Virus record (IMG/VR): IMGVR_UViG_3300045993_000044
Coordinates: 1 to 31,955 of that record
Length of the DNA stretch: 31,955 nucleotides
Origin: a virus
Strand: one strand, 5' to 3'
Part shown: positions 1-31,373 of the stretch, in pieces
Position numbering within the stretch: position 1 is the first letter of the stretch
Layout: each line of letters starts with the position of its first letter
Position numbers and translations under genes: made by a program
The notes under the pieces: generated by a model
Told to the model about the DNA's origin: nothing
The model's database searches: none
Seen by the model: the letters and a program-made list of their open reading frames with translations, nothing else

Positions 1-3000
1 CGCCCAAAGTCTTCGGCAACATCCACACCGAACTGGCTCACACCCAGTAGCCCAGCCCGTTGAACCCCGTACCCTACGTAGTCTGATACGCCCCAGCCCT
101 TCTTCCACTCAGGTGTATCTCCACCCCCCTGCAGCATGCCCTTGGCGGTATCCACAGCGATCATAGTGGGTACGTAGCTGGCGAGTGCCATCGCAGGGGT
201 GTAGTTGCCGTTTCTAAGCTCATGCATCACTCGGCCGAGAATGACCTTGTGGAATGTGAACACGAACTGTTTGAGGTGAGCTATCAGCGCCCAGTGTGGA
301 TCATTCATCCAGATCGGTTTGTCTGTCGCATCAGGACGGAGTACCGCCCCATCTACCCACTGGTTGATGGCAGCATGAACCCGTGTCACTTGCTCACTGG
401 TCAGTCCGTCTGCCTCAGTCAGCGCAATCTTGTCACCTACCATCTGGATGTCGCCTTTGCGTAGCCCTAGTTCGCGCATCCAGCGTTTACTGTGTGTGGA
501 GCTACCTAACCCATCCAGACCTCCTGCGTGACGCCCTATGAACCGTACAGCGGCCTCTACAGCCCCTACTCTGAAGTTGCGGTTCAGTCCCTCCACGAGG
601 TTGTACTTGAAGAACGCGTTGTTGATCTTCTGTGCTGCACCACTCACCATGCCTTGGGAGTACACATCCCCCATCACGTGGCTCATCATGGCTGTGTCCA
701 CAGCGCCGACCAGCTCTGCCCACTTCGTGCCCTGGTCGTGGGCCTCACCACCGTCTTTACTGAATGTCTGGGTTATGCCCTTCATACCGCGCTTGAAGGC
801 TCCCCAAGCATCGTTGACCGTGCCGCCGCGCACGATGATGCCCAGAGGGTCAACCACCATGCTGAAAGCCGCCAGCGGCAGCAGGCGTACATTCTGGTAG
901 ACCATCATGTTGCCCACCAGCCGCCGCGCCGTCGGGTCCATGGTGTCGCCCAGTGTGCCGTCTACGCCCTTCATGTATTCCTCGGCAAGCGCCAGGTGCT
1001 CAGTGGTAGCCCCTTGCGAACGCGCCTCGTCCAGGATGCGCTCCAGCTTACCCTTACCCAGCCGCTGTGCCCACTCAGCTTTACGCGCAGCCTGCCCGAT
1101 GTAGCTGCTCATCGTGGCGTGGAAGTTCTTGGTCACGAACTGTGCAGCATCAGCCGGGGTGATGAATGACAGCAGCCGCTCTTTAGTGTGCTGCATGCCG
1201 GGCTGGGTTACTTCCCGCAGGTCAGCGCCAATGCCCAGCTCAGATCCTTCATGGCTCAGCAGCCTGCTGATCAGCTTATCAGCTGTGCCCTTCATCTCGC
1301 CCCTACGGACGTAGGGCTCGAGCATGTTGCGGAAAGCCTGCTGGTTCTTGCTGATGTAGTGGGTATCCCATACACGCGGAAAGTAGTCTGGTCCGAGGTC
1401 GCCAAGGTTCACGCCGGACGACTTCATGTACTTGTGGATACCACGCAGAAACTCTTTGACTTCTTTAGCTGCTATTCGGGCTTCGGGCGAGGCTGCTGGC
1501 TTATCCGCCTGCAGCGCCTCCATCATGTCTCGAGTCTGCTCCTCGCTCAGCCCACCAACAATCTCCCCGAGTTGGGTACGCAGTTTGGTCGCCTCGATCC
1601 GCGCTGCTGGCACAAACCCCTGATCGCCACCTTCTTCGGTTGAATCGCGCTTGAGGATATCAGCCAGGTCTTTAAGCGCGGGGATACCAGTGTTCCTTAG
1701 TCGATCACCACCAGCGCCCACCATAGCGTCAGCCAGCCTGCCCAGAGGCTCTGTGACGCTCCTGGCCGCCTCCAGAACCTGGCTGCGGTGTGTCTCCATC
1801 AACGCGTGACGCACGGCGCTGGGACTGCCCATGTCACGGGCATACTGCCCTTCGTGGAAGTACCCCATGATGTGATGGGCACGCTCGTCGTTCGTCCATG
1901 TGCCCATGACCTTACGGATGAACGCCTTGATCTTCTCAAACACAGTCTTGGCGCTGATACTCACTTTGAACCCCTTGGGGTCAGCTGCCCACATCTGGTA
2001 CATGTAGGCCGCACGTTCCTCTGGGTCCTTGAGCTGCTTGAGCACCTCAGGCTGGTTCTTGAAGCGCTCGTGCAGCTGCTTGATCACGTGCTCGCTCGAT
2101 GCCGCCTTCTCCAGCACCTTGGTCACATCATGCGCACCAGCATCACGGAGCTGCGCGAAGAACGCGTGCAGGCTCTCGTGGTAAGCTGTGGACATAGGGT
2201 CCAGCGCGTGGATACTCAGCCGGATGAAGTCGCCAGTTTTCGCACGGTCGAATTGCCCAGCGTGGGTGAACGTAGCCCACGCCAGCTTGACGGACTTGGC
2301 CAGGACTTTCTCAATGTGGTCCCGGATGTCCTGGCTGGTGTAGTTCTTGGAGTTGTCGCGGTTCGGGTCGGTGGACTCGGCGCTGAACATACCGCTGCCT
2401 GTCTTGCTTTTGTTCGCGCCAGTGATGCGCTCCCAGTTGACTGGGATTTCATCTTTACCCATCACGTGCTTTGAGTAGGCCAGCGCAGTGGCCAAGAAAC
2501 GCGCCACCTGCCGGTCTGATGTTCCGTCGATACGGGTCAGCTGTTCGCCTGCATTGGTCGTGCCGTTGGCGTCGCGCAGCACACCCATGGAGTCAGCGAG
2601 CTTGCCGCCGGGGTAGTCTCGTCTCGGGCCGAACGTGTCGAACGTACCAGTGCCCTTGTGGTACATCCCATGCTGCACCGAGAAGTATTGCAGCGCGTTT
2701 GCTTTCTTGTCGCCAGCGGCTTGCTTCAGGGCAACTTTGAGCCTGGGGATGAGCTGGTCTGGGATGATGCAGGTATGGGCGTAATCACCATCATCATAGA
2801 AGAAGTAGGTGACGTCCTTCCCGAAAGCGCCAAACGAATCCGCTCCGATTTTGCCAGCAGCGACGCCTTTTTGTCCAACATTAGCGAACTCGACTCTTCG
2901 ATCATCCGCAAGTCGTGTGATAAGTCTGGCTCGTCCATCGGTGGCTCCGTCCTCAGTTTGGGTTGATTCTAGGCTGTACTTTGTCTCACCAGACTTCTCG

Positions 3001-6000
3001 GATGCCCCCTTCGCGGGGGCTTGAGCTTTTGGGCTCTTGGTGCCCTCCACCCAGATGCTCTTCCCGTCCTTCTTCGTCCAGTGACCCTCGTCAGGCTTGG
3101 TCTCCGCCTCAACTTCAGGCTGGATGCCATTTGTGGCGGTACCGGTCTTGTCGAACTTGATGGGGTTCTCAGCGGGCTTACTACCCTTCACGCTGCTGAT
3201 CGGTCCCGGTGCTTTCGCTCCGGGGGCCACAACCACGTCCTGGTACTTTCGCGCCAGCTCGTTGATGGTGGGAGCAGCCTCACTCAGAGTCATGGAGTCC
3301 TGAACCCCTGCACCAGAACCGAACTTACCCGCGTCGATGTAATCCTCCAGCCCCTCGATTTCGTCTTTGAGGATGCGGGCGAATTCACTGTTCTTCGATC
3401 CAAGTTCATCGTACAGGTTCTCCCTGCGCGTCAGCTCCTTGACCGCCTGATTCGAGGACATCTTGGCCATGTTGTCATTCAACGTGTTATTGGCGGTGTA
3501 CCGGTCATCGTAGTTCACCTCGCCACCCTTGCGGTTTATCAGAGGGTCCGGTGCCAGCATGCGCAGTTTGTCCTGATCAGCCTTACTCATTGACGCCGCT
3601 ACCGATACCAGCTTCTTGGCACGGGCTACGAGCTTCTGCGCGACGACTCCCGGTGTCTTGGCCCACTCGGCGGCGATCGTACCAGCCAGAGTGTTTAACC
3701 CGCCGACACCCTTGCTGTTACCAGCCCAGTGTGCGGACCCGTCCATGTTAGATCGGTGGATGAGGTCGTCGGCTTTCATACCGCTGAAAGTGGCCTCATT
3801 GATGTTGCCCGACTTGTCAGCATCTTTGCGTGCGCCCATCTCGGAGCTGAAGCTGTTGTTATCGGTGTAGGTAGCTCCCTGCGCCGTATCTTTCTTCGTG
3901 CGCGGAGCTGTGGTGTCCGCAGGAAGGCGGCTGGCCTCCTGCGTATCGCGCCCACCTGCGAGTTCACTGCTCAGCACTTTGTCGTGGGTACGGATCAGGT
4001 CAATGTACTCCATCAGACGTTCGGGTACTTTGGACTCATCGCCGTCGGCTGCCTCGCGCTCTTTGACAAACGCCCGGACCAGACCATTGTGGGCTTTGTT
4101 GACGTCGATCTTCCGGACCTTAGCGAACTCAGCCCTGATCTCTTCCTGCCTACGGGCGTTCTTGTCACGCTTGACATCCTCATCTGTACGGACATCGAGC
4201 TTACGGGCTTCACCCCATGTGACCGGCTTGCCGTTGACATAACCGATGACAGCTGCATCGTTAACAACAATCGGGTGCTCCTTGCTGCCGTACTTCTCGG
4301 TCAGCAGCGCAATGCCTTGGGCAAACCCGTCAGCCATCCGCTGGCGAACTGTTGTGCTGCCTCCACGATCGATGCGCTGCTGCGATTTACCGCGCATGAC
4401 GTCCATGACCTTTGTGGCGTCGAGGATGTGCTCCGGCACAGTCTCGCCCTTGGCATTCTTCTTGGCACCCACCTCTATCCGGCTCACACTCTTTGAGTAG
4501 CGCTTGGTATCGAGCTTCATGCTGGCCAGGTCGTCGTCATTAAACTCATTGGGGTTATCGCGCTTCTCGACCACGATGTGCCCAAACTCAGAGCCCTCGG
4601 CTTTCTCGAACCGGATGTCGTAGCCGTTGTCCTCATGTGACTTGACTACGCGCCCTTCGTCGTCCTTGGTGCTGTGGCGGTCTTTAAGCGCCTGCAGGTA
4701 CTTCTCGGTGTACTGGCTGTCCTTGTGCATCATCGCGCCGTTGATGACGTTGCGCTGGTGGCCGCTGACATTAGGTTTGCTCAACCCGTAGCGGGTAATG
4801 TCCTGCTCGGTTTTGTCCAGCCGGTTGCCGTTCTCGTCGAACCCACCGTCGGCTGACTGGATCTCTGCGCCGTTCTCGTCGGTGAGCACCTCGTCAGAGA
4901 ACTCAGCACCGCCGCTGCGGTCCATGTTCGGCTCACCATACTGTTTGGCAGCCTCTTCAACGCGCTTACTGACAGCAGCTGCGTTCGGCCCGAAGTGGTC
5001 CTCCAGCACACCGGCCAGAGATTCGTTGATAGCCTGTGCTTCCGCTGGAGTCGACTTAGCGGTCAACTCGCCTCTGGCGTGTTTCACCAAGGTGTCCGCC
5101 AGCTTGGGCAGGTCGATCGATAGATTCGAGCGCAGCGCATCCTCAGTCATTGACTCACGTAGGAAGCCATGCAGGTCGCCACGGAGTTTGCTCGCCCGGT
5201 TCAGGTCGTTGATGCTCTGGAATATCTGGTCTGTTTTCTTTGGGTCGAGGTTGGCACCGGCCAGAACACGTGTGATGGTGTTGATCATGTGCGGGGCATC
5301 TTTGCCGAACACGTCGATCATCTTGTTGGAGATGCGCTCGCTGAGCTTGCCCTTGGCCGCCTGCTCTGCCACGACACGCAGGGCATCAGCCATGGCGTTG
5401 ATAGAGTCGTTGTTGCCGAACAGGTCCGGGCGCTTTTTGGCGATCCCGGACTCCTGAATTGCCTGTGCCACCGCTGTGTTCGCTCCGGAGTAGTCCTCCG
5501 AGAGCTTAGGATCGGGGCGGGGGCCATTTAACGACTCCACATACGCCTGCCGGGCTTCATCCTTGCTTACCCCGTGCTTGGCCATAAAAGCGTCTATAAA
5601 GGCTTTCCGGTCCTTGATAGTAGCCTTGGGGGCTTCAGTCGCTGCAGGGGCTTCTGAGGGCGTTTTAGGGGCACTGGCGTACCCTAGCTGGACCAGCTCA
5701 GGAGTGGGTTCGTCCACTACCCTGCTTTCTACATCACCCCGTTTTGTGCGCTCGTGCTCAGATTTGACCGCGTCGACGAACTCATTTACCTTCGCTACGC
5801 CCGTCTTGCCCAGGTCCCACGCCTGCTTCAGCCCCGCCATGGCCATCTGCCCGGCACGATCCTTGATGTTCCCGGCAGCAGTCATGATCTCCGCCCGCTT
5901 ATCGGCGTCCAGCCCCCTGTCGGCCAGCATCTCGTCGGCCCACTTTGTGGCCGCTTTGACGTGCTCGTTGTCCGAGAGTTCGGTCAGCCTGCGCTTGGCC

Positions 6001-7049
6001 TCGTCTGTGGTGGCTCGCGCCCACTCAGCAGGATCGACACCCAGCTCTTCACCGCGCAGCACCTTACCAACAGTGTCATCAACCTTCTCCCGCCCTCTCT
6101 GAACCAGATCAGAGACTTCGTCCCACGCTGACTTAACCTTCTTACCGTGGGTAGACTCAGCCGCCGCATCAAGTTTCTCGGACGTAGCGCTCTTCGCAGC
6201 CGCCAGCTTATCGCTAATAGATGTTCGAGCTGCGTCGAATTTCTCACGCGCTGCTGGCGCGACATTGTGGATGAGGTCGCCCGCCACCCCAATGTGACCC
6301 ATAGCACCACCGCCGATCGCACCACCGATGGCATTCTCCTTGACCGACTCCCAGTCAATGGGCGCGTTTGGATTAGCTCCCGTCTGCTTGATGACGTCAC
6401 CGCCGCCTTCGGCCCCTGCTTCCAGTGCCGCATCCCCTAACACGTTGCGCCCGTAGATACCTCTGAGCGACTGCTTTGCCGCCCCCGCAGTACCACGGGT
6501 CAGCTGCTTACCAACCATCCCCGGCACGATGCCCTGGAATGCCGCAGAGCCAACACCACCTGCCACGGCACCGAGCGCACGGTCACCAAGTGACTGCTGC
6601 ATAGCCTCCGGGCTGGCTTGTTGTTTCTGAATCGTGTCCCCGATCTCGAACGGTGCTGTGGCCGCACCGGCAGCGAGCATGGCTGGGATTGCCCCGCTGC
6701 CAGTCATTGCCCCGGCACCCATAGCTGCCAGAGAGACTGGAGCCGACCCACCGACGACACCTGCGCCGTAGCGCAGCAGGTTGCCGACACCGTTTACTTG
6801 GTCCCATGAGCTGATTTGAGGGGCAGCAGTCGCCGCCTCTTGGCGCAGGGCCTGTGACCGGGCGTAGCTGGCCTTGGCGAAGTCATCAGCGCCCACCAGT
6901 TCACCGGCCATACCAGCAACTGAGTGGAGCTGGGACTGAGCGCCAGAGAGGCCGGAGTCCCATCCACGGCGCAACGAGGTGCCTATGGTGTCGTCCTGGA
7001 CCTGTGTCCCTGGGGTTTTGGCGTCCAGGATGTCAGAGAAGAGACTCAT
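1..7049 (-). CDS. Giant internal virion/ejection (polyvalent-type) protein, C-terminus outside window
   Basis: The frame is open from the ATG at 7049 to the window edge with no stop, giving at least 2,349 codons. A Shine-Dalgarno AAGG (TAAGGTTACACC-ATG) fixes the start, just after the stop of the preceding gene. The first 250 residues carry several Gly/Ala-rich hydrophobic stretches (about residues 88-140 and 155-185), as in podovirus ejection proteins that contact membranes. Long charged helical regions follow. At residues 1624-1628 there is HESLH, an HExxH zinc-metallopeptidase signature, followed by an E-E-R-A-A-Y segment near residue 1677 that could supply the third ligand. Known context: phages of the Bcep22 and N4 types package proteins of 3,000-4,600 residues and inject them with DNA, and polyvalent proteins often carry metallopeptidase domains. 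Inference: this protein is in the virion and enters the cell. I see no vRNA polymerase or lysozyme motif in the visible part, but the C-terminus is missing. Confidence 0.85.
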   Translation of the reverse strand, partial: MSLFSDILDAKTPGTQVQDDTIGTSLRRGWDSGLSGAQSQLHSVAGMAGELVGADDFAKASYARSQALRQEAATAAPQISSWDQVNGVGNLLRYGAGVVGGSAPVSLAAMGAGAMTGSGAIPAMLAAGAATAPFEIGDTIQKQQASPEAMQQSLGDRALGAVAGGVGSAAFQGIVPGMVGKQLTRGTAGAAKQSLRGIYGRNVLGDAALEAGAEGGGDVIKQTGANPNAPIDWESVKENAIGGAIGGGAMGHIGVAGDLIHNVAPAAREKFDAARTSISDKLAAAKSATSEKLDAAAESTHGKKVKSAWDEVSDLVQRGREKVDDTVGKVLRGEELGVDPAEWARATTDEAKRRLTELSDNEHVKAATKWADEMLADRGLDADKRAEIMTAAGNIKDRAGQMAMAGLKQAWDLGKTGVAKVNEFVDAVKSEHERTKRGDVESRVVDEPTPELVQLGYASAPKTPSEAPAATEAPKATIKDRKAFIDAFMAKHGVSKDEARQAYVESLNGPRPDPKLSEDYSGANTAVAQAIQESGIAKKRPDLFGNNDSINAMADALRVVAEQAAKGKLSERISNKMIDVFGKDAPHMINTITRVLAGANLDPKKTDQIFQSINDLNRASKLRGDLHGFLRESMTEDALRSNLSIDLPKLADTLVKHARGELTAKSTPAEAQAINESLAGVLEDHFGPNAAAVSKRVEEAAKQYGEPNMDRSGGAEFSDEVLTDENGAEIQSADGGFDENGNRLDKTEQDITRYGLSKPNVSGHQRNVINGAMMHKDSQYTEKYLQALKDRHSTKDDEGRVVKSHEDNGYDIRFEKAEGSEFGHIVVEKRDNPNEFNDDDLASMKLDTKRYSKSVSRIEVGAKKNAKGETVPEHILDATKVMDVMRGKSQQRIDRGGSTTVRQRMADGFAQGIALLTEKYGSKEHPIVVNDAAVIGYVNGKPVTWGEARKLDVRTDEDVKRDKNARRQEEIRAEFAKVRKIDVNKAHNGLVRAFVKEREAADGDESKVPERLMEYIDLIRTHDKVLSSELAGGRDTQEASRLPADTTAPRTKKDTAQGATYTDNNSFSSEMGARKDADKSGNINEATFSGMKADDLIHRSNMDGSAHWAGNSKGVGGLNTLAGTIAAEWAKTPGVVAQKLVARAKKLVSVAASMSKADQDKLRMLAPDPLINRKGGEVNYDDRYTANNTLNDNMAKMSSNQAVKELTRRENLYDELGSKNSEFARILKDEIEGLEDYIDAGKFGSGAGVQDSMTLSEAAPTINELARKYQDVVVAPGAKAPGPISSVKGSKPAENPIKFDKTGTATNGIQPEVEAETKPDEGHWTKKDGKSIWVEGTKSPKAQAPAKGASEKSGETKYSLESTQTEDGATDGRARLITRLADDRRVEFANVGQKGVAAGKIGADSFGAFGKDVTYFFYDDGDYAHTCIIPDQLIPRLKVALKQAAGDKKANALQYFSVQHGMYHKGTGTFDTFGPRRDYPGGKLADSMGVLRDANGTTNAGEQLTRIDGTSDRQVARFLATALAYSKHVMGKDEIPVNWERITGANKSKTGSGMFSAESTDPNRDNSKNYTSQDIRDHIEKVLAKSVKLAWATFTHAGQFDRAKTGDFIRLSIHALDPMSTAYHESLHAFFAQLRDAGAHDVTKVLEKAASSEHVIKQLHERFKNQPEVLKQLKDPEERAAYMYQMWAADPKGFKVSISAKTVFEKIKAFIRKVMGTWTNDERAHHIMGYFHEGQYARDMGSPSAVRHALMETHRSQVLEAARSVTEPLGRLADAMVGAGGDRLRNTGIPALKDLADILKRDSTEEGGDQGFVPAARIEATKLRTQLGEIVGGLSEEQTRDMMEALQADKPAASPEARIAAKEVKEFLRGIHKYMKSSGVNLGDLGPDYFPRVWDTHYISKNQQAFRNMLEPYVRRGEMKGTADKLISRLLSHEGSELGIGADLREVTQPGMQHTKERLLSFITPADAAQFVTKNFHATMSSYIGQAARKAEWAQRLGKGKLERILDEARSQGATTEHLALAEEYMKGVDGTLGDTMDPTARRLVGNMMVYQNVRLLPLAAFSMVVDPLGIIVRGGTVNDAWGAFKRGMKGITQTFSKDGGEAHDQGTKWAELVGAVDTAMMSHVMGDVYSQGMVSGAAQKINNAFFKYNLVEGLNRNFRVGAVEAAVRFIGRHAGGLDGLGSSTHSKRWMRELGLRKGDIQMVGDKIALTEADGLTSEQVTRVHAAINQWVDGAVLRPDATDKPIWMNDPHWALIAHLKQFVFTFHKVILGRVMHELRNGNYTPAMALASYVPTMIAVDTAKGMLQGGGDTPEWKKGWGVSDYVGYGVQRAGLLGVSQFGVDVAEDFG

Positions 7050-7058
7050 GGTGTAACC

Positions 7059-9407
7059 TTATCTTAGGGAGTTATTCGGGGCGCTGAAGTTTGGAAAGAC
7101 GTGGCTGGCGTTCGGCCCATACTGAAGGTTCACATTCGGGATAGACCCGACAGGAAGCCCAGTATTCGGGTCGACAAACTCCATGCGCTGCTGGATCAGA
7201 TTACCCTGCTGAGGCCGCATATTGGCATCAGAGTAAGTGCGTAGGTCGTTGGTCGGACCGCCACTCCCAGCCAGTGGGTTCATGCCGTAGGAATCGCGGT
7301 GCAGCTCCATGCGCTGGAAGTGCTTGGTCATGTTGGCCCGGTCACGCTCATCGAGAGCGGCCTTACCGTGGGTCATTAGTTTCTTACCGTAGGCGACTTC
7401 TTTCGGGTTACTGGAGCCCAGCAGCTGCTTGGCCATGGCACCGACGGTTGCGTCCGTGGCCTGGGTGTAAGCAGCTATGCGCTTGGCGTCTGGCACCATC
7501 TTGCCGTTGCCGTCATCGGCCTGGAATATCGTAGCCGCGTGGTCGCTCCACGCTTTGTCGTGGCTCAGCCGCTGTTCTGATGCTTTGTCGTCGCGCCCTG
7601 CTGAGAACTCACGGTCTTTGTTAGCCTGTTCTCTGAGCATGTTGTTCAGGTTGAACCGGTTCGTCATCTTGTGGCCCATCAACGATGTCTCGTTCGTCGA
7701 CTGGGTATTCGCCCGGCTGGTAGCGTTGGACTCGGCATTCGCCTGCAGCTGTGCCTGTGCTGCGATGTCTGCGCTGCGTAGTGCTGTTGCCATCTTAATG
7801 GGCATGTTGGCGTACTTGTCCTCACCACCACCTCGAAGGTCCTCGAAGTATTTGTACTGACGGTCGATCATGGCAGTATGGCGTGCAGCGTTGTCCAGCT
7901 GTTCCTGCTTCCACTCTGCTGCCTCTGCTGCACGCTGAGCCTTACCCTCAGGGGTAGACACATGAGTCCACGCCTGGCCGTCAAACAGGCGCTGTGTACC
8001 GTCGGGCATCAGCTTACCGAATGCATCTGTGTTTGACGTGTCACCAGCCTTCGGCAGGTTCTTGGCGTTGAGGTCCGGATTCTCGGCTGCAAACTTGGCG
8101 AGCATGGCGTTGTTGTCAGCATCGAAGTTCTGTGTGTCGCGTAGCTGAGGCTTGGGTGCACCGGCGTTTACTCCGGGGGTCAATGGGACCTTGTCCAACT
8201 GGCGCAGAGCCGTGTCATCTACACCCCAGTCCCGACCGAGAGCGCCACCTACCTTACGCACGCCTGAGTTGATGGTACGTCCGATAGAGTTCTTGGTGTC
8301 GTCACTGAGCATCGGGTTGACAACGTGTTTACCGACTGCGTGCCCAGCTCCGTATGCTGCACCGAGCCAACCGGCAGGTGTGGTAGATGCGCTAAGTGCA
8401 GAGGCGGCAGTCAGCGCCCCATTGTCAATGGCACCCGCTGTGTTCCCTGCCTCGATGTCATTCATGGTGTTGTGGGCGTTATACCCCGCAGCCAGAGCTG
8501 ACACTCCTCGATTGGCCTGCTCAACCATCGGGGAACGCAAGAACTCACCGGCACGTTGGCCGAGGTAACGGTAGGGATCACGGACTCCAGGGTTCGTGGG
8601 TAGTTGTGCAGGCGCTCCATTGGCGACAGCTGGTACTTGATATGTTGGGAGTTTGTTATTCCCTGACACATCGCCGACGATTACACCGTCTACGGCTTGT
8701 AGTCTATTTCCGCCGAGCGCCTTGGCGTCAGCCTGCTCGGGAGTCATACCCTTGTCTGCCAGCACCTCTTCGCGCAGTCCGCGAAGCTGGCCTCTTAACG
8801 CGGGTTCTGCAGCGAGCATGTCGTTGCTCACCACAAACTCACCCGGCTCGTACTTGGCAGGGATCTTGTCCCCAGTGCCAGTGCCAGGCACATCCCCACC
8901 CATGCCGGTGCGCAGGGTGCCGCCATGTTTGAACCCGTACTTCTTAGCGTTCGTCTCGGCACTTACGCCCTGGATATTCGCAGCTATGTTGTTGACTGTC
9001 GTTGGTGCAGCAGGCTGCACGACTGGGGCCGGAGCATCATGACGCAGCATCGCGTCTTTCGTGTTGTCTGCCCGGTACTGGGCGATGGCCTTGTCCTTCT
9101 CGCTTGGCGCAGTCATCTCGTTGTACTTGTTGACCATCCCTTTGATGCTCCACGGGGAGACGCCGTCGGCGGCATGAATCTCCCCGCCGTCGCGCAGCTG
9201 GGGCATAGCCATAGGCTGGAACGATCCGAGCATAGAACCAGGATCAACGTGACCGGCCCCCATGAGCTGATCCCCTGGTTTCAGGGCGGACGTTTCGGGT
9301 GCGACCCCATCGACCGCACGAAGCACACCGTTGCGCTTGGCGAAGCGATTCATAAGCTCCATGCCGTTAGCGGCACGCAGAGATTTGGCTTGGGGTTTGC
9401 AGCTCAT
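7059..9407 (-). CDS. Internal virion protein with GEFVV motif
   Basis: A 782-residue protein, start ATG preceded by AGGAACAGACC. Residues 171-194 read GDVPGTGTGDKIPAKYEPGE then FVVS, matching a motif (GTGtsDsIPAmLspGEFVv) common in large phage virion proteins and tape measures. A repeated AVDG/AADG motif occurs at about residues 31-34, 79-82 and 238-241. Residues about 323-359 are rich in Ala, Gly and Ser and mildly hydrophobic, a possible membrane-active segment. The C-terminal half is polar and helical with many Asn, Gln and Ala, ending in a Pro/Asn-rich tail. It lies directly upstream of the giant protein gene (stop and next SD nearly overlap), so the two are probably made together and both packed inside the capsid or tail. 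Its exact role is unknown; an ejection protein is the best inference. Confidence 0.8.
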   Translation of the reverse strand: MSCKPQAKSLRAANGMELMNRFAKRNGVLRAVDGVAPETSALKPGDQLMGAGHVDPGSMLGSFQPMAMPQLRDGGEIHAADGVSPWSIKGMVNKYNEMTAPSEKDKAIAQYRADNTKDAMLRHDAPAPVVQPAAPTTVNNIAANIQGVSAETNAKKYGFKHGGTLRTGMGGDVPGTGTGDKIPAKYEPGEFVVSNDMLAAEPALRGQLRGLREEVLADKGMTPEQADAKALGGNRLQAVDGVIVGDVSGNNKLPTYQVPAVANGAPAQLPTNPGVRDPYRYLGQRAGEFLRSPMVEQANRGVSALAAGYNAHNTMNDIEAGNTAGAIDNGALTAASALSASTTPAGWLGAAYGAGHAVGKHVVNPMLSDDTKNSIGRTINSGVRKVGGALGRDWGVDDTALRQLDKVPLTPGVNAGAPKPQLRDTQNFDADNNAMLAKFAAENPDLNAKNLPKAGDTSNTDAFGKLMPDGTQRLFDGQAWTHVSTPEGKAQRAAEAAEWKQEQLDNAARHTAMIDRQYKYFEDLRGGGEDKYANMPIKMATALRSADIAAQAQLQANAESNATSRANTQSTNETSLMGHKMTNRFNLNNMLREQANKDREFSAGRDDKASEQRLSHDKAWSDHAATIFQADDGNGKMVPDAKRIAAYTQATDATVGAMAKQLLGSSNPKEVAYGKKLMTHGKAALDERDRANMTKHFQRMELHRDSYGMNPLAGSGGPTNDLRTYSDANMRPQQGNLIQQRMEFVDPNTGLPVGSIPNVNLQYGPNASHVFPNFSAPNNSLR

Positions 9408-9420
9408 GGTCTGTTCCTAT

Positions 9421-9432
9421 TCTAAATTAGAT
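9421..9432 (-). promoter_or_regulatory. ATCTAAnTTAGA border motif, copy before the 782-residue virion protein gene
   Basis: On the minus strand this 35-base gap reads ATCTAATTTAGAATAGGAAC, placing the motif just ahead of the Shine-Dalgarno AGGAA. Nearly the same string (ATCTAAGTTAGAATAG) precedes the gene at 17065, and a palindromic version lies ahead of the capsid gene. It could be a promoter element, an RNA-processing site or a regulator site. TAGAAT resembles a -10 hexamer, but I see no matching -35. Confidence 0.4.
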
Positions 9433-9442
9433 TATCGACGAT

Positions 9443-11353
9443 TTAGCCCATCGTGGCGGACTCAACCGCCAGAGCATTCATCCCGGCCATAGCCGAGCCC
9501 GCGAGGTTGGCGTGTACAGTAGCGTTGGCCTGGTGCAGCGTGGCCAGGAGCGTCAGGTAACGGGTCTTGGCCTCGGTGTCTGCCACCATGCCCTGCAGGA
9601 ACAGCTTGGCGTTCTCGACACCAATCTGGCTGGTAGCCTTGTAGTACTCGACGCCCACCTGAGCGTTGGCCACAGCCGCTTGTGACTCGGCCTGAAACGC
9701 TATAACCTGCTGGCGCTGGTTTTCGAGCTTGGTGCGTGCCACCTCACCGCGTGCTGACACGACCGTCTTGTAGGCGTCGACGTTGGCCACGAACTGCTTG
9801 GCACGGGCGTCGTTCGTGATGGCTGCAGCCTGAACCGTAGCGGTCTTGGCTTCGATCTGAGTTTTGTAACCCGTCATCTGTGAGGCGTAGGCTTGGGCCT
9901 GCGCACCGTAGGCCCGTACCTTAGATTCTTGTGCGCCGACCTGAGCAACGTAGCCCTGCCATTCAGCGTTCTTGGCACTGACCTGCGCACCGTAGGCTTG
10001 CACCTGAGCCTGGAACACGTCGATCTTGAGCTTCTCGAACGATGCCTTGCTGACGGTAGCCTCGACCTGAGAGCGGTACATGTTGGACAAAGCTGTCAGC
10101 ACGTCGACCCTCGCCTTGTAGACCTGAACACGAGTCATGTCGACCTGAGCCATCGCCTGCATGGCCTGAATCTCAGCCTTGTAGACCTCCACTGCTGTGA
10201 GCGAAGCCTGCAGCAGCGTCTGGTACACCTGTGCGTCGGTCTTGTAGCCGTCGAGCTTGGCCGTGTAGACCCTCACTGCAGCGTTGTAAGTCTCGACCAT
10301 CGCGTTGACCACGGCCTTGGCGTACTCCATCGCCTGTCCGTTGATGGACACAATGTTCTGCATGTAAGCCATCGCCGCGTTGATGGCTGCTGTGCGCAGG
10401 TGTGTGCTGGTAGTCACCGCGAACTGCAGATTCTTCTGCTCCATCTCAGCCTGCATGACGACGATCTCACGCGCTGCAGCCGAGTTGTTGTCCGAGCCAG
10501 CTTGGCGTGCCTGCTGAGTAGCTGAGAGCAGAGCGCCACCGGGCATGGTGAAGCCGCGTGCAGCGGCGTCTGCCAGGCTCTGGTCACGCACACGTCGGGC
10601 CTCAGCATCGTTCTTGCTGCGGGCGCGGGTATAGATAGCGTCCTCGACAGCAGCGTTGAGCCCGGTGCCACCAGCGAGGTACTTGGTGAGTTGGGTCTCG
10701 ATGGCGGCAAGCTGGGCTTGGTACTGGGGGTTGATCTTCAGCAGCTCAGCGTCGACGTAGCTGTTGGCTACGGCCATGAACTCGGGGGCCGCTGCATGGT
10801 ACGAGCTGCGCATCACGTCGGCCAGATCAGTGGTCATGTCGGCTGGGGCGTCGGGCTTGGTACCGTCGAACGGAGCGAGGTCTACGACGGGTTTGTCAGG
10901 AGCCGTATAGTCACCAAACAGCGTTGGCTCGGGTTCAGGCTTGATGATCTCGGGTGCGTCGGGCCAGTGCAGGCCATCGAGCGCAAGCGGGGTGAGCTTC
11001 TCTTGGAACTGGGCCAGATCGGAGGGCTTGTTGATGGCGTCCAGTGTCGGGACGGAGCCTGAAAATGTAGGGATGACTCCAACCTCAGCAGAAGGAATGT
11101 CCTGAAAGACAAGAAGCCCTGTGGGCTCAGTAGGCAGGTCGAGCGCGACGTCAGCCAGCACGGGTATCTTCAGTACCGTAGTTTTTTCAGGCTGGTCTGG
11201 CAGGTTGGCGTATGAATAACCAATGCTCGGGCTCCGCGCCCACTCGACCGCACCGATGGCGTCGGTCATGGCCGTCTCGGCGGCTGTCACCATCTCAGTG
11301 GCATACGCCTTGGCGTTGGCGATGAGTACGCTTGCTTGTGTTGTGGTAGCCAT
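9443..11353 (-). CDS. Long coiled-coil virion protein with heptad tyrosine lattice
   Basis: A 636-residue protein; its ATG overlaps the upstream stop (TAATG), so translation is coupled. Residues about 50-175 are Pro-rich and probably extended. Residues about 190-600 are almost entirely helical, rich in Ala, Gln, Val and Lys. Between residues 356 and 496 every tyrosine (356, 363, 370, 377, 391, 412, 426, 454, 468, 482, 489, 496), plus Phe447, falls on one seven-residue register, with Val/Ile/Leu three residues before or four after. This is a regular coiled coil with aromatic residues in a core position. It lies between a fibre-like gene and the internal virion protein genes. Possible roles are a tail or needle rod, a tape-measure-like rod or an internal core protein. 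I recognise no enzymatic domain. Confidence 0.8.
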   Translation of the reverse strand: MATTTQASVLIANAKAYATEMVTAAETAMTDAIGAVEWARSPSIGYSYANLPDQPEKTTVLKIPVLADVALDLPTEPTGLLVFQDIPSAEVGVIPTFSGSVPTLDAINKPSDLAQFQEKLTPLALDGLHWPDAPEIIKPEPEPTLFGDYTAPDKPVVDLAPFDGTKPDAPADMTTDLADVMRSSYHAAAPEFMAVANSYVDAELLKINPQYQAQLAAIETQLTKYLAGGTGLNAAVEDAIYTRARSKNDAEARRVRDQSLADAAARGFTMPGGALLSATQQARQAGSDNNSAAAREIVVMQAEMEQKNLQFAVTTSTHLRTAAINAAMAYMQNIVSINGQAMEYAKAVVNAMVETYNAAVRVYTAKLDGYKTDAQVYQTLLQASLTAVEVYKAEIQAMQAMAQVDMTRVQVYKARVDVLTALSNMYRSQVEATVSKASFEKLKIDVFQAQVQAYGAQVSAKNAEWQGYVAQVGAQESKVRAYGAQAQAYASQMTGYKTQIEAKTATVQAAAITNDARAKQFVANVDAYKTVVSARGEVARTKLENQRQQVIAFQAESQAAVANAQVGVEYYKATSQIGVENAKLFLQGMVADTEAKTRYLTLLATLHQANATVHANLAGSAMAGMNALAVESATMG

Positions 11354-17190: not shown

Positions 17191-18177
17191 TTAAACCCCC
17201 GTCACCACGTTCGTCCAAGTCGTCGCCCCGTCAGTATTGACGTACATCCGCGTACTTGTGCTGCTACCGTCAGAACGAAGGTAGAGCGACCCTTTGGCTG
17301 CTGACAGAGTTGGTACACCGCTACCAAAGAACACACCGAAGTTTGCCGTGCTTGATACGCATACCCCGGCAGTGTTTGCGCCGCCTGCTGGGATTGCAGT
17401 TCCTGACATTACGGTTGCTTTTGCAGGTATAGCCACCAATCCAGCGGTACTTATCGTCACGGCATTGAGTGCAGGTGTTCCAGTACCAGAATCTTTCGGC
17501 CCGACATCTAGCTTCAGGCCCGTTTCCCCCCAGAGCGTTGGCGTCAGATTGGCCGCTGTGCCGTAGATGGCCGACCGATGTCCAAACGCACCCGCACTAG
17601 TACCCAACCAATCCCCTATCCAATAGACGAGCCCCGCCCCAAGTCCAGTTGAGCTACCGATTCCAACAATGCTGTGAGGCGCATTACCACCGAAACTTAT
17701 GTCCTCCTTGACGGCTAGGAAATTGAACGTAGGTATGAGGGTCCCACTTCCCAGCCATGCGTTCAAAGTTTCCTTCAGATTTCCCCAAGTAAACTTCTTC
17801 AGCGCCCACGACGCAGCGCTGTCAATCAGGCCAAGCTCGTCGGCATCCACTGGCGTGGCCTTCGTCAGTGCAGCGTGAATCGCCAACGTGCCGTCGGCAC
17901 CAGTGTCTCCGGTCACACCTTGAATACCCTGTATGCCTTGTATTCCCTGAATCCCTTGATCTCCAGTCAATCCCGTCGGTCCCGTGTTCCCGGTGACGCC
18001 TTGAATACCCTGCGGTCCATCGGCCCCTGTAGCGCCTTGAATGCCCTGTAGACCTTGAGGCCCGGTCGGTCCTGTTGGCCCAGTAGCCCCCACAGTTCCA
18101 GCGCCCGGTGGTCCCTGCTCGCCGACCTCAACGAGTTCGATAGAGTCGTCAACAACGGTGATGTAGTGGTTGTTCAT
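17191..18177 (-). CDS. Collagen-repeat tail fibre
   Basis: A 328-residue protein. Residues 27-96 are an unbroken Gly-X-Y run (23 triplets) with GPT, GIQ and GVT units, a collagen-like trimeric rod typical of phage fibres. A globular region follows ([17 protein letters not shown], then [14 protein letters not shown]). The C-terminal tip, [20 protein letters not shown], continuing to [13 protein letters not shown], is a common phage fibre end. The ATG overlaps the upstream stop (ATGA), so it is coupled to the 162-residue gene. Predicted role: a trimeric host-recognition or side fibre. Whether it is attached through the 462- or 773-residue proteins cannot be told from sequence alone. Confidence 0.88.
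17890..18099 (-). repeat. Gly-X-Y collagen-like repeat, including four tandem 9-base GIQ units
   Basis: This coding repeat encodes residues 27-96 of the fibre. At 17920-17955 four consecutive 9-base units encode Gly-Ile-Gln with only synonymous differences. Such arrays readily expand or contract, so fibre length may vary between isolates. Confidence 0.85.
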
Positions 18178-29402: not shown

Positions 29403-31373
29403 TTATTCAACGCGGCGGAGCATTACGCCCAGAACGTCACACGTTGCACCGCCATCGCTTGCGCGCCCGATGCGTATGTGGTTTAGCGCCCCCACTTTCT
29501 TTGCCAAGCGGGGGGTAACGTTCGTCACCGATAGCAAATTGATAGTTCCAGACTGAGCCAGCGACCCAGATACAAGGGCAACGTCGCCACTTGTCAATGC
29601 CTCGCCAGAGGCCACTTGAGATGTAGTGATAGACATTGTTGCGCTTGCCGTTCCTGCCGCGCTTTGCGTCCAACACATATCAATCGCAAAGGCACGCCAG
29701 TGATGAGGCACAGCGTAAGTGCATTGAATCTGCTGATTTGTAGCAGTAGCAATGCGCCAAGTCGGAAACCTTGAACCACCGCCTTGAGCCTGAAAAGTTG
29801 CACCGTTGGCGGTAGTAAAAGAAACTGCATCAATAAAAATGCGCTCTGAAACGCCAGTCGTGCGCACCAATCTTATAACGGTCAGCACTGCATTCCATGA
29901 ATCAGTTGGACTCAAGGCTATTGTGTAGCCCCCGTCCGCGTTTTTGCTTAGGGTTGCCGGGTTGCCGCTCGTAAGATTGATTGCCGACTCAAAGATCGCC
30001 CCATCCGAAGGCGCAGTAATTGTCAATGTTCCTGCTGGTGCTTTCAGGACATGGATGTATTCGGTTGTAAGGTCTTTAGATGTGGTCGCTACATATCCCG
30101 GTGTTGCCAAATTGTTTATCGTGGCCGTGTTGACACCTATAAACGATGGACTAGCCACCACATTGGTAAGCGACTCTCTTACCCCGGACAAATAGGCTGC
30201 AATCGCCTGCATTCCAGTCTCTACCCCATCTTCAAAAATTGATCCACTATCTGATCCAGCATACGGACTCGCATTAAGCATGATCCCGCCACCCTGAAAA
30301 TTGGTGGTTGCTATTTGTAACACTACATGACGATAAAAATCAGACGCTGTGTATCTGAATGATGGAGTTCCCCTTGGGATTTTTGCCCACCATTCTCCAG
30401 TGTTTGTAGCAAGAGCAGAAGAACCGTTGTAAGAAGCAACCCAGTCATTTATACCTGCTGGTGCTGGGTTGTATTCCCTGCACCTGTAATCAAAAATGTA
30501 TTGTTGCGGCCCAGTTAATCCCCATGTTTGCGTATCGTCTCCTCTGTTTCCGATAATCACCCGAGCAGGATTACCGGCAAGCATTGAGGTTCGCAGCGCA
30601 TTTGCCTGTGCCACAGTGCTGAAGTATGTAGCAAGTAGCGGATTAACCGCTTGATCCACCCAATACCCTGCAACGTCTGTGCCGTAGCGCAATCCCATTT
30701 CTGTGAAAAGTGCATTTATAAATGTATTCCACTCAGCATAGTTGCTTGCAGAATTCCCCCACCCAGTAGCAGTTTGCTCACCAGCTTGTAAATCAGCACC
30801 GTCAAGCGGATGGATGTACAGAACCAACTTGATTTTGTATGGCTTTAGAGCCGCTATCAAATCGGCAATAACATCTCTAGTAGATGCGTGTCCTGTCATG
30901 TAAGAATTCATCACAGCACTTGGATAAAGAACGTGCATTGCGTAATGAAATGCAGTGAACACCACATATTCAACGCCAAACGAAGCACACGCCGCAGCAT
31001 ATTTGGATGAATCAAATGCCGATGCCGCTTCAGTTACAGATGTTGGAATTGATCCATCTGCATAGCAAGTTTGGGGATGCCCAACGCCACCGAAAGAATA
31101 GTGAGACATTAGTCCATATTTAGCAGATGCGTACCAACTATGAACTGCTGGAGGGGCGCTTGCCAAAAGAGACAATTCTTTCGCTTCTTTGACTGATAGA
31201 TTGGTAATTTCATTCTGTCCAGCCACCAAGCTAATCCCCCCGGTGACAGGATTGACATCCGCCGTTACCAGTCCTACATCTTTGCCGTTGATGTCGATTA
31301 CAGACGTGACCTTACCTGAGTCATTGCGGACTATGCGCAGGTCAGAAAACTCGACAGCTTGTATGGATGACAT
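29403..31373 (-). CDS. GH29 alpha-L-fucosidase-like virion or tailspike protein
   Basis: A 656-residue protein. Residues 1-75 form a small N-terminal domain with DVNPVTGGISLVAGQ, as in phage fibre proteins. Residues 79-405 follow the GH29 (alpha/beta)8 pattern: WYASAKYGLMSHYSF (80-94), FDSSKYAAACASFGVEYVVF then TAFHYAMH (120-147), KPYKIKLVLYIHPLDG (177-192), GYWVDQ with Asp240 where GH29 has its nucleophile, RVIIGNRGDD, then GGGIMLNASPYAGSDSGSIF (361-380). After that come short beta domains and a C-terminal domain ending HIRIGRASDGGATCDVLGV, again tailspike-like. The Shine-Dalgarno is GAAAGG. Predicted action: cleavage of a fucose-like or deoxysugar glycan at the host surface. The acid/base residue cannot be assigned by eye. 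Low GC (22 of 60 at 30301-30360, against 37 of 60 in the portal end) marks it as acquired. Confidence 0.72.
   Translation of the reverse strand: MSSIQAVEFSDLRIVRNDSGKVTSVIDINGKDVGLVTADVNPVTGGISLVAGQNEITNLSVKEAKELSLLASAPPAVHSWYASAKYGLMSHYSFGGVGHPQTCYADGSIPTSVTEAASAFDSSKYAAACASFGVEYVVFTAFHYAMHVLYPSAVMNSYMTGHASTRDVIADLIAALKPYKIKLVLYIHPLDGADLQAGEQTATGWGNSASNYAEWNTFINALFTEMGLRYGTDVAGYWVDQAVNPLLATYFSTVAQANALRTSMLAGNPARVIIGNRGDDTQTWGLTGPQQYIFDYRCREYNPAPAGINDWVASYNGSSALATNTGEWWAKIPRGTPSFRYTASDFYRHVVLQIATTNFQGGGIMLNASPYAGSDSGSIFEDGVETGMQAIAAYLSGVRESLTNVVASPSFIGVNTATINNLATPGYVATTSKDLTTEYIHVLKAPAGTLTITAPSDGAIFESAINLTSGNPATLSKNADGGYTIALSPTDSWNAVLTVIRLVRTTGVSERIFIDAVSFTTANGATFQAQGGGSRFPTWRIATATNQQIQCTYAVPHHWRAFAIDMCWTQSAAGTASATMSITTSQVASGEALTSGDVALVSGSLAQSGTINLLSVTNVTPRLAKKVGALNHIRIGRASDGGATCDVLGVMLRRVE

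Follow-up and report, generated by a model that had tools for sequence, protein, structure and literature searches.

What is a metallopeptidase-like motif doing in the middle of a giant phage protein, and where, when and on what would it act? The question is raised by a 31,955-base virus record, analysed over its whole length (the window), in which the ORF of P0001 starts with an ATG at position 7049 of the minus strand and runs off the contig at position 3, remaining open at the window edge after 2,349 codons; alignment to complete relatives indicates that roughly 60 C-terminal residues are missing. An earlier note, made from the letters of the DNA, had described a protein of at least 2,349 residues with an HESLH motif at residues 1624-1628 and a pair of glutamates at 1677 and 1678, and rechecking of the ORF and of these positions bears the description out. 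Its label of "membrane-like" for the N-terminal segments is fair as far as composition goes, 25 of the 40 residues from position 93 being Gly, Ala or Ser, but transmembrane segments are not supported, with N-terminal hydropathy maxima of only 1.26-1.33 (19-residue window). Pfam and NCBIfam searches returned no named domain in P0001, and 7.25% of shuffled P0001 sequences contain an HExxH, so that the motif by itself proves little and it is conservation that makes it real. The features discussed below are collected in Table 1.

Table 1. Location of P0001, of its predicted modules and site residues, and of the adjacent gene in the window.
Feature	Position in window	Strand	Basis
Giant ejection protein P0001	3..7049	-	ORF, full-length relatives, PHROG 30152
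N-terminal Gly/Ala-rich ejection module, residues ~24-263	6261..6980	-	Profile match, hydropathy
Cargo region, residues 264-1353	2991..6260	-	Pairwise blastp; no Pfam/NCBIfam match
Slot module X, residues 1354-1556	2382..2990	-	~46% to L025 only
Predicted zincin core, residues ~1572-1689	1983..2336	-	AlphaFold2, structural matches
HESLH motif, residues 1624-1628	2166..2180	-	HExxH conserved in 45/47 relatives
E1678, candidate third metal ligand	2016..2018	-	45/47; lost along with HExxH in L097
C-terminal helical ejection core, residues ~1766-2349 (to window edge)	3..1754	-	Profile and structural matches
782-residue protein just upstream of the giant gene	7059..9407	-	blast to relatives' neighbours

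The two ends of P0001 point to the type of protein to which it belongs. Profile comparison (hhalign) relates the N-terminal module to the short LUZ24/tf-type proteins at E 1e-11 and the C-terminal core to the same proteins at E 1e-25, and the LUZ24-type relationship is shown at this level. The region that follows the predicted zincin also matches the virion proteins of the Pseudomonas phages KPP25 and phiR18 (Kochitakasuvirus) and, at E 1.5e-143, PHROG 30152, a "virion structural protein", so the previous statement that the flanks of the motif match nothing does not stand for the downstream side. The relationship to gp16 is probable: weak profile matches connect the N-terminal module with T7 gp16 328-405 (E 0.01) and the C-terminal core with T7 gp16 559-716 (E 0.0014, probability 17%; reversed control 0.33), the register of the T7 gp16 profile match is nearly that of the phiM1 structural alignment, and the best solved neighbours of the C-terminal model are of the gp16 type (phiM1 Z 8.4, T7 7.5 and 7.3, E1004 6.8), with Z values that fall within the range reachable by chance for helical folds. 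In BFVD, the same model matches "internal virion protein D", the internal virion proteins of LKA1 and JG068, and several entries whose names refer to large polyvalent protein domains. The best explanation is that P0001 is the ejection protein, of LUZ24/gp16 type, of a podovirus related to KPP25, and its homology to ejection proteins together with its virion-gene context makes it very probable that it is injected into the host; delivery follows from the nature of the protein and is not assumed.

The 782-residue product of the adjacent gene is kept beside the giant gene in the relatives L002, L006 and L018 (blast), has no Pfam match and, judging from its position, is possibly a second ejection protein. 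Elsewhere in the window, all on the minus strand, a GH29 alpha-L-fucosidase domain (Pfam E 3.5e-13) marks a 656-residue protein (29403-31373) that is encoded among virion structural genes and is possibly a tail-borne or cargo glycosidase, a collagen-like repeat protein (17191-18177; Pfam E 9.6e-13) is probably a fibre, and the product of 11353-12930 matches F5/8 type C (carbohydrate-binding-like) weakly, narrowly missing the curated cut-off (E 1.1e-5). Among the records of relatives, the 349-kb Vibrio phage V07 (L012, MT135025.1), classified as Schizotequatrovirus, contains a block of podovirus virion and replication genes resembling VPp1 and is likely a chimeric assembly; KPP25 gp03 (L014, 3772-4944), annotated as "photosystem II D1" in KPP25 and phiR18, looks like a misannotated virion protein; and three MAG contigs (L110, L111 and L113) fall in bins of Burkholderiaceae, Janthinobacterium and Burkholderiales, which hints at what hosts the phage group has.

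The HESLH lies in a region that AlphaFold2 predicts, from an alignment of relatives, as a small alpha/beta fold in the order helix, three strands, HExxH helix and a helix carrying E1677/E1678, with pLDDT 83-97 in a second model. In the model, the HExxH occupies a helix and E1678 stands in the next core helix, so the motif is not buried away from a possible ligand. The best structural match, with a Z of 7.7 over 140 residues at 3.6 A, is to the catalytic domain of lethal factor, and lower Z values are reached by IrrE (6.4), CapP (5.3) and ArdC (5.1); Certhrax, PprI, MATCAP, Spartan and selecase are also matched, and nearly all of the top matches are zinc peptidases or zincin-like folds. Foldseek gives a best E of 0.02, which is suggestive only, and a sequence profile run against the PDB finds nothing significant; since Z values below 8 are not decisive alone either, the zincin assignment rests on topology and residues.

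Conservation of those residues was followed in two sets of relatives. The first, drawn from IMG/VR with KPP25 and phiR18, keeps H1624, E1625, H1628, E1677 and E1678 in 22 of 22 members; its search patterns contained parts of the motif, and conservation was therefore retested with a search on the C-terminal domain only. The 27 non-redundant relatives found solely in this way are unbiased for the motif, and 25 of them keep it, with the HExxH 303-373 residues upstream of the C-terminal domain. Altogether, H1624, E1625 and H1628 are present in 45 of 47 non-redundant relatives and E1678 co-occurs with them in 45/47, whereas E1677 is found in 39/47. Of the two glutamates proposed earlier as a possible third ligand, E1678 is therefore taken as the candidate, being constant where E1677 varies. 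That the HESLH would have arisen by chance in a helix outside any metallopeptidase domain, as the 7% of shuffles with an HExxH might suggest, is already contradicted by the 45/47 conservation with a distant co-conserved Glu, by the zincin topology and by the structural matches, and its probability is negligible. The evidence supports a real zincin-type metallopeptidase domain in P0001, with peptidase activity as a prediction, in line with the earlier note's placing of a metallopeptidase within a polyvalent phage protein.

The exceptions are informative as well. L097 keeps the zincin domain, yet the two His have gone together with the catalytic Glu and with E1678, which is what a metal site shared by residues far apart in the chain predicts, in a single case; a second, intact HExxH domain lies further upstream in the same protein, the site-dead copy standing about 300-380 residues before the C-terminal domain. 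All four site residues are absent from the very distant protein L115, and L108 is too distant to judge. The persistence of the domain in L097 after loss of the site would suit a domain without catalysis, either a zincin fold whose metal site is structural or a remnant; the catalytic Glu of the HExxH, which a metal site does not require, is conserved to the same degree as the ligands (45/47), and such a reading is very improbable. In P0001, zinc would be held by H1624, H1628 and E1678, with E1625 as the general base, and the domain would hydrolyse peptide bonds.

Roughly 1,500 residues, made up of cargo and zincin, lie between the two ejection modules, and their arrangement bears on what the zincin might do. 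The cargo region is common in part to L002, L004, L006 and L018 (pairwise blastp). Between it and the zincin lies a slot filled in P0001 by module X, for which, at the sensitivity of the tools, IMG/VR, the phage collection and the GTDB genomes hold no relative beyond L025; its model has a pLDDT below 60 and novelty of the fold is not claimed. L025 is 48% identical to P0001 over the zincin and core, yet has module X, whereas L002, 79% identical to P0001, lacks it. Other relatives carry different modules: an ART-PolyVal domain (E 1e-14) that ends just before the zincin in L086, a cpYpsA/SLOG domain (E 4e-9) plus zincins in L005, LPD23 in L091 and a weak M78-like match in L096, while about ten members have additional HExxH motifs of the kind typical of further zincins. 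In long members whose sequence reaches the N-terminus, the position of the HExxH ranges from 1,196 to 2,280, and the distance from the zincin to the C-terminal domain is nearly fixed. In the sequences compared, modules are swapped beside a constant zincin. The slot is empty and the zincin kept in L002, L018, L022 and L023, and in L030 the cargo and the zincin plus core are separate genes (2-3376 and 7374-10571), set about 4 kb of other genes apart on the contig that also holds L075, with the HESLH kept in the zincin half; this split is seen on one contig, and an error of assembly might in principle account for it.

Some further features of these chains were recorded. One giant family protein, L096, combines within residues 1674-2071 a SLOG/DprA-like match, DUF7831 (E 1e-38) and DUF4326, and L067 has a second zincin-like domain at residues 1298-1392 whose Pfam match to ATLF, the lethal factor domain family, lies below threshold (E 0.005). 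The slot module shared by L004, L006, L027, L081 and L109 is ART-like by eye, but an ART identity was set aside at E 0.29 against the ART-PolyVal of L086. No conserved cleavage site was found. A recurring [YF]S[LMVI] motif at the slot edges, with 9 of its 30 occurrences in the linker that leads into the zincin, was considered as a cleavage site and is a lead only, as its overall frequency lies within the shuffle range (30 against a shuffle mean of 18 and maximum of 34).

How such a chain might work can be outlined by analogy. T7 and phiM1 gp16 enter the host. P0001 may have arisen from a compact gp16/LUZ24-type protein, expanded by the insertion of ~1,500 residues of cargo and zincin between N-module and C-core, and it would be packed in the virion and then threaded, along with the DNA, into the host. 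In T7 gp16, a first membrane region (243-410) is followed by a cytoplasmic part (411-1118) and then by a second membrane region (PMC8954989); the match at 328-405 falls in the first membrane region and that at 559-716 in the cytoplasmic part, and on this topology the cargo and zincin would, by analogy, be displayed in the host cytoplasm, where they may refold. The zincin may then process its own chain, releasing the cargo from the ejectosome anchored in the membrane. This processing after delivery, in which the injected zincin cuts the cargo from the membrane-anchored core, is the most likely job of the domain, given its constant position between cargo and core and the modules swapped just upstream, although its probability falls slightly short of one half. 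The fixed position also fits the proposal of Iyer et al. that zincins process polyvalent chains, either before packaging or after delivery (PMC5512222), while the purified vRNAP of N4, the nearest studied analogue, was without degradation, which speaks against processing (PMC12633501). Freeing slot modules would not be the zincin's only role, since it is kept with an empty slot and in the two-gene L030.

The same members argue for a different use. The active-site residues persist in members with an empty slot and in L030, where the cargo has a gene of its own, and the injected zincin could instead act in trans as infection begins, cleaving one specific regulator or defence protein of the host. 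Repressors are the substrates of IrrE/PprI and CapP, and the structural neighbours of the zincin include these peptidases with regulator substrates and the antirestriction protein ArdC, although structural neighbours are no guide to substrates; other polyvalent modules of the relatives, such as ART-PolyVal, are effector-like. The fixed place at the cargo/core boundary suggests an in-chain role, and the loss of the active site in L097, which has another HExxH domain, suggests that this role is interchangeable; a host-directed effector appears rather unlikely. If true, it would join the small number of virion-delivered proteases whose host target is defined.

The timing of the cut could also differ, with the chain cleaved during head assembly and separate pieces held in the virion. 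Maturation of this kind was inferred by Iyer et al. for DdrB of phage P1, but N4 vRNAP is packaged unprocessed (PMC5512222). The two-gene L030 indicates that cargo and core need not share one chain; however, cargo freed before packaging would need a packaging and ejection signal of its own, and a maturation peptidase seems a distinctly improbable reading. Processing after delivery is retained as the leading one. To our knowledge, direct tests of zincin processing are scarce and the polyvalent class is almost untested. Zincins are the commonest domain of polyvalent proteins, and their chain-processing role was proposed in 2017 (PMC5512222). The family offers material for such tests, with cultured relatives (KPP25, phiR18), defined residues to change (E1625, E1678) and natural variants that include a site-lost member, a two-gene member, and members with and without the passenger module. 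It also suggests an origin for giant ejection proteins, in which cargo would be inserted between the halves of a compact LUZ24/gp16-type protein at a place that is host-cytoplasmic by the T7 topology.

Polyvalent proteins with zincins are already known (PMC5512222), as is the giant injected N4 vRNAP with its HExxH subdomain (PMC12633501). A description of the KPP25-type protein in such terms was not found in the searchable literature, a scope to which the original KPP25 paper does not belong, and the main text of Iyer et al. does not mention the P0001 family by name (PMC5512222). Among known systems, the closest is the KPP25/phiR18 virion protein, which is homologous over residues 1572-2343 (35% identity, E 8e-131), keeps the HExxH and an EER motif and is encoded among virion structural genes; its cargo is unrelated to, or unalignable with, that of P0001, and its records read "virion structural protein" only, with no peptidase annotated. 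The short LUZ24/tf-type proteins, exemplified by gp51 of Pseudomonas phage tf (about 1,020 residues), have the N-terminal Gly/Ala module and C-core of P0001 and, unlike it, lack both cargo and HExxH. With gp16 of T7 and phiM1, a common C-terminal fold is probable and sequence homology is marginal; P0001 is twice as long, with zincin and cargo inserted, and no transglycosylase was found in it. N4 gp50 (Schitoviridae) is a giant injected chain that resembles P0001 in its layout, with a membrane-like N-terminus, a central cargo enzyme, an HExxH subdomain (HELVH at 2228) and a large helical C-terminus (PMC12633501). Homology between the two is not supported, neither the zincin nor the C-terminus (C1/C2 in N4) having profile similarity (profile-profile probability 0.3%), and Pfam detects no RNA polymerase domain in P0001, which is laid out like the N4 vRNAP and is not a shown member of its group. 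The likeness of the zincin to solved peptidases is one of fold only; to the catalytic domain of anthrax lethal factor it amounts to about 11% identity and implies no common function or target. Iyer et al. linked the N4 domain to lethal factor too (PMC5512222). Like the polyvalent proteins of Iyer et al. 2017, the P0001 family joins unrelated domains and a zincin in one phage late-gene chain: at least two unrelated domains occur together in relatives (ART-PolyVal with a zincin, SLOG with zincins), and in P0001 itself the nameable parts are the zincin and the ejection modules.
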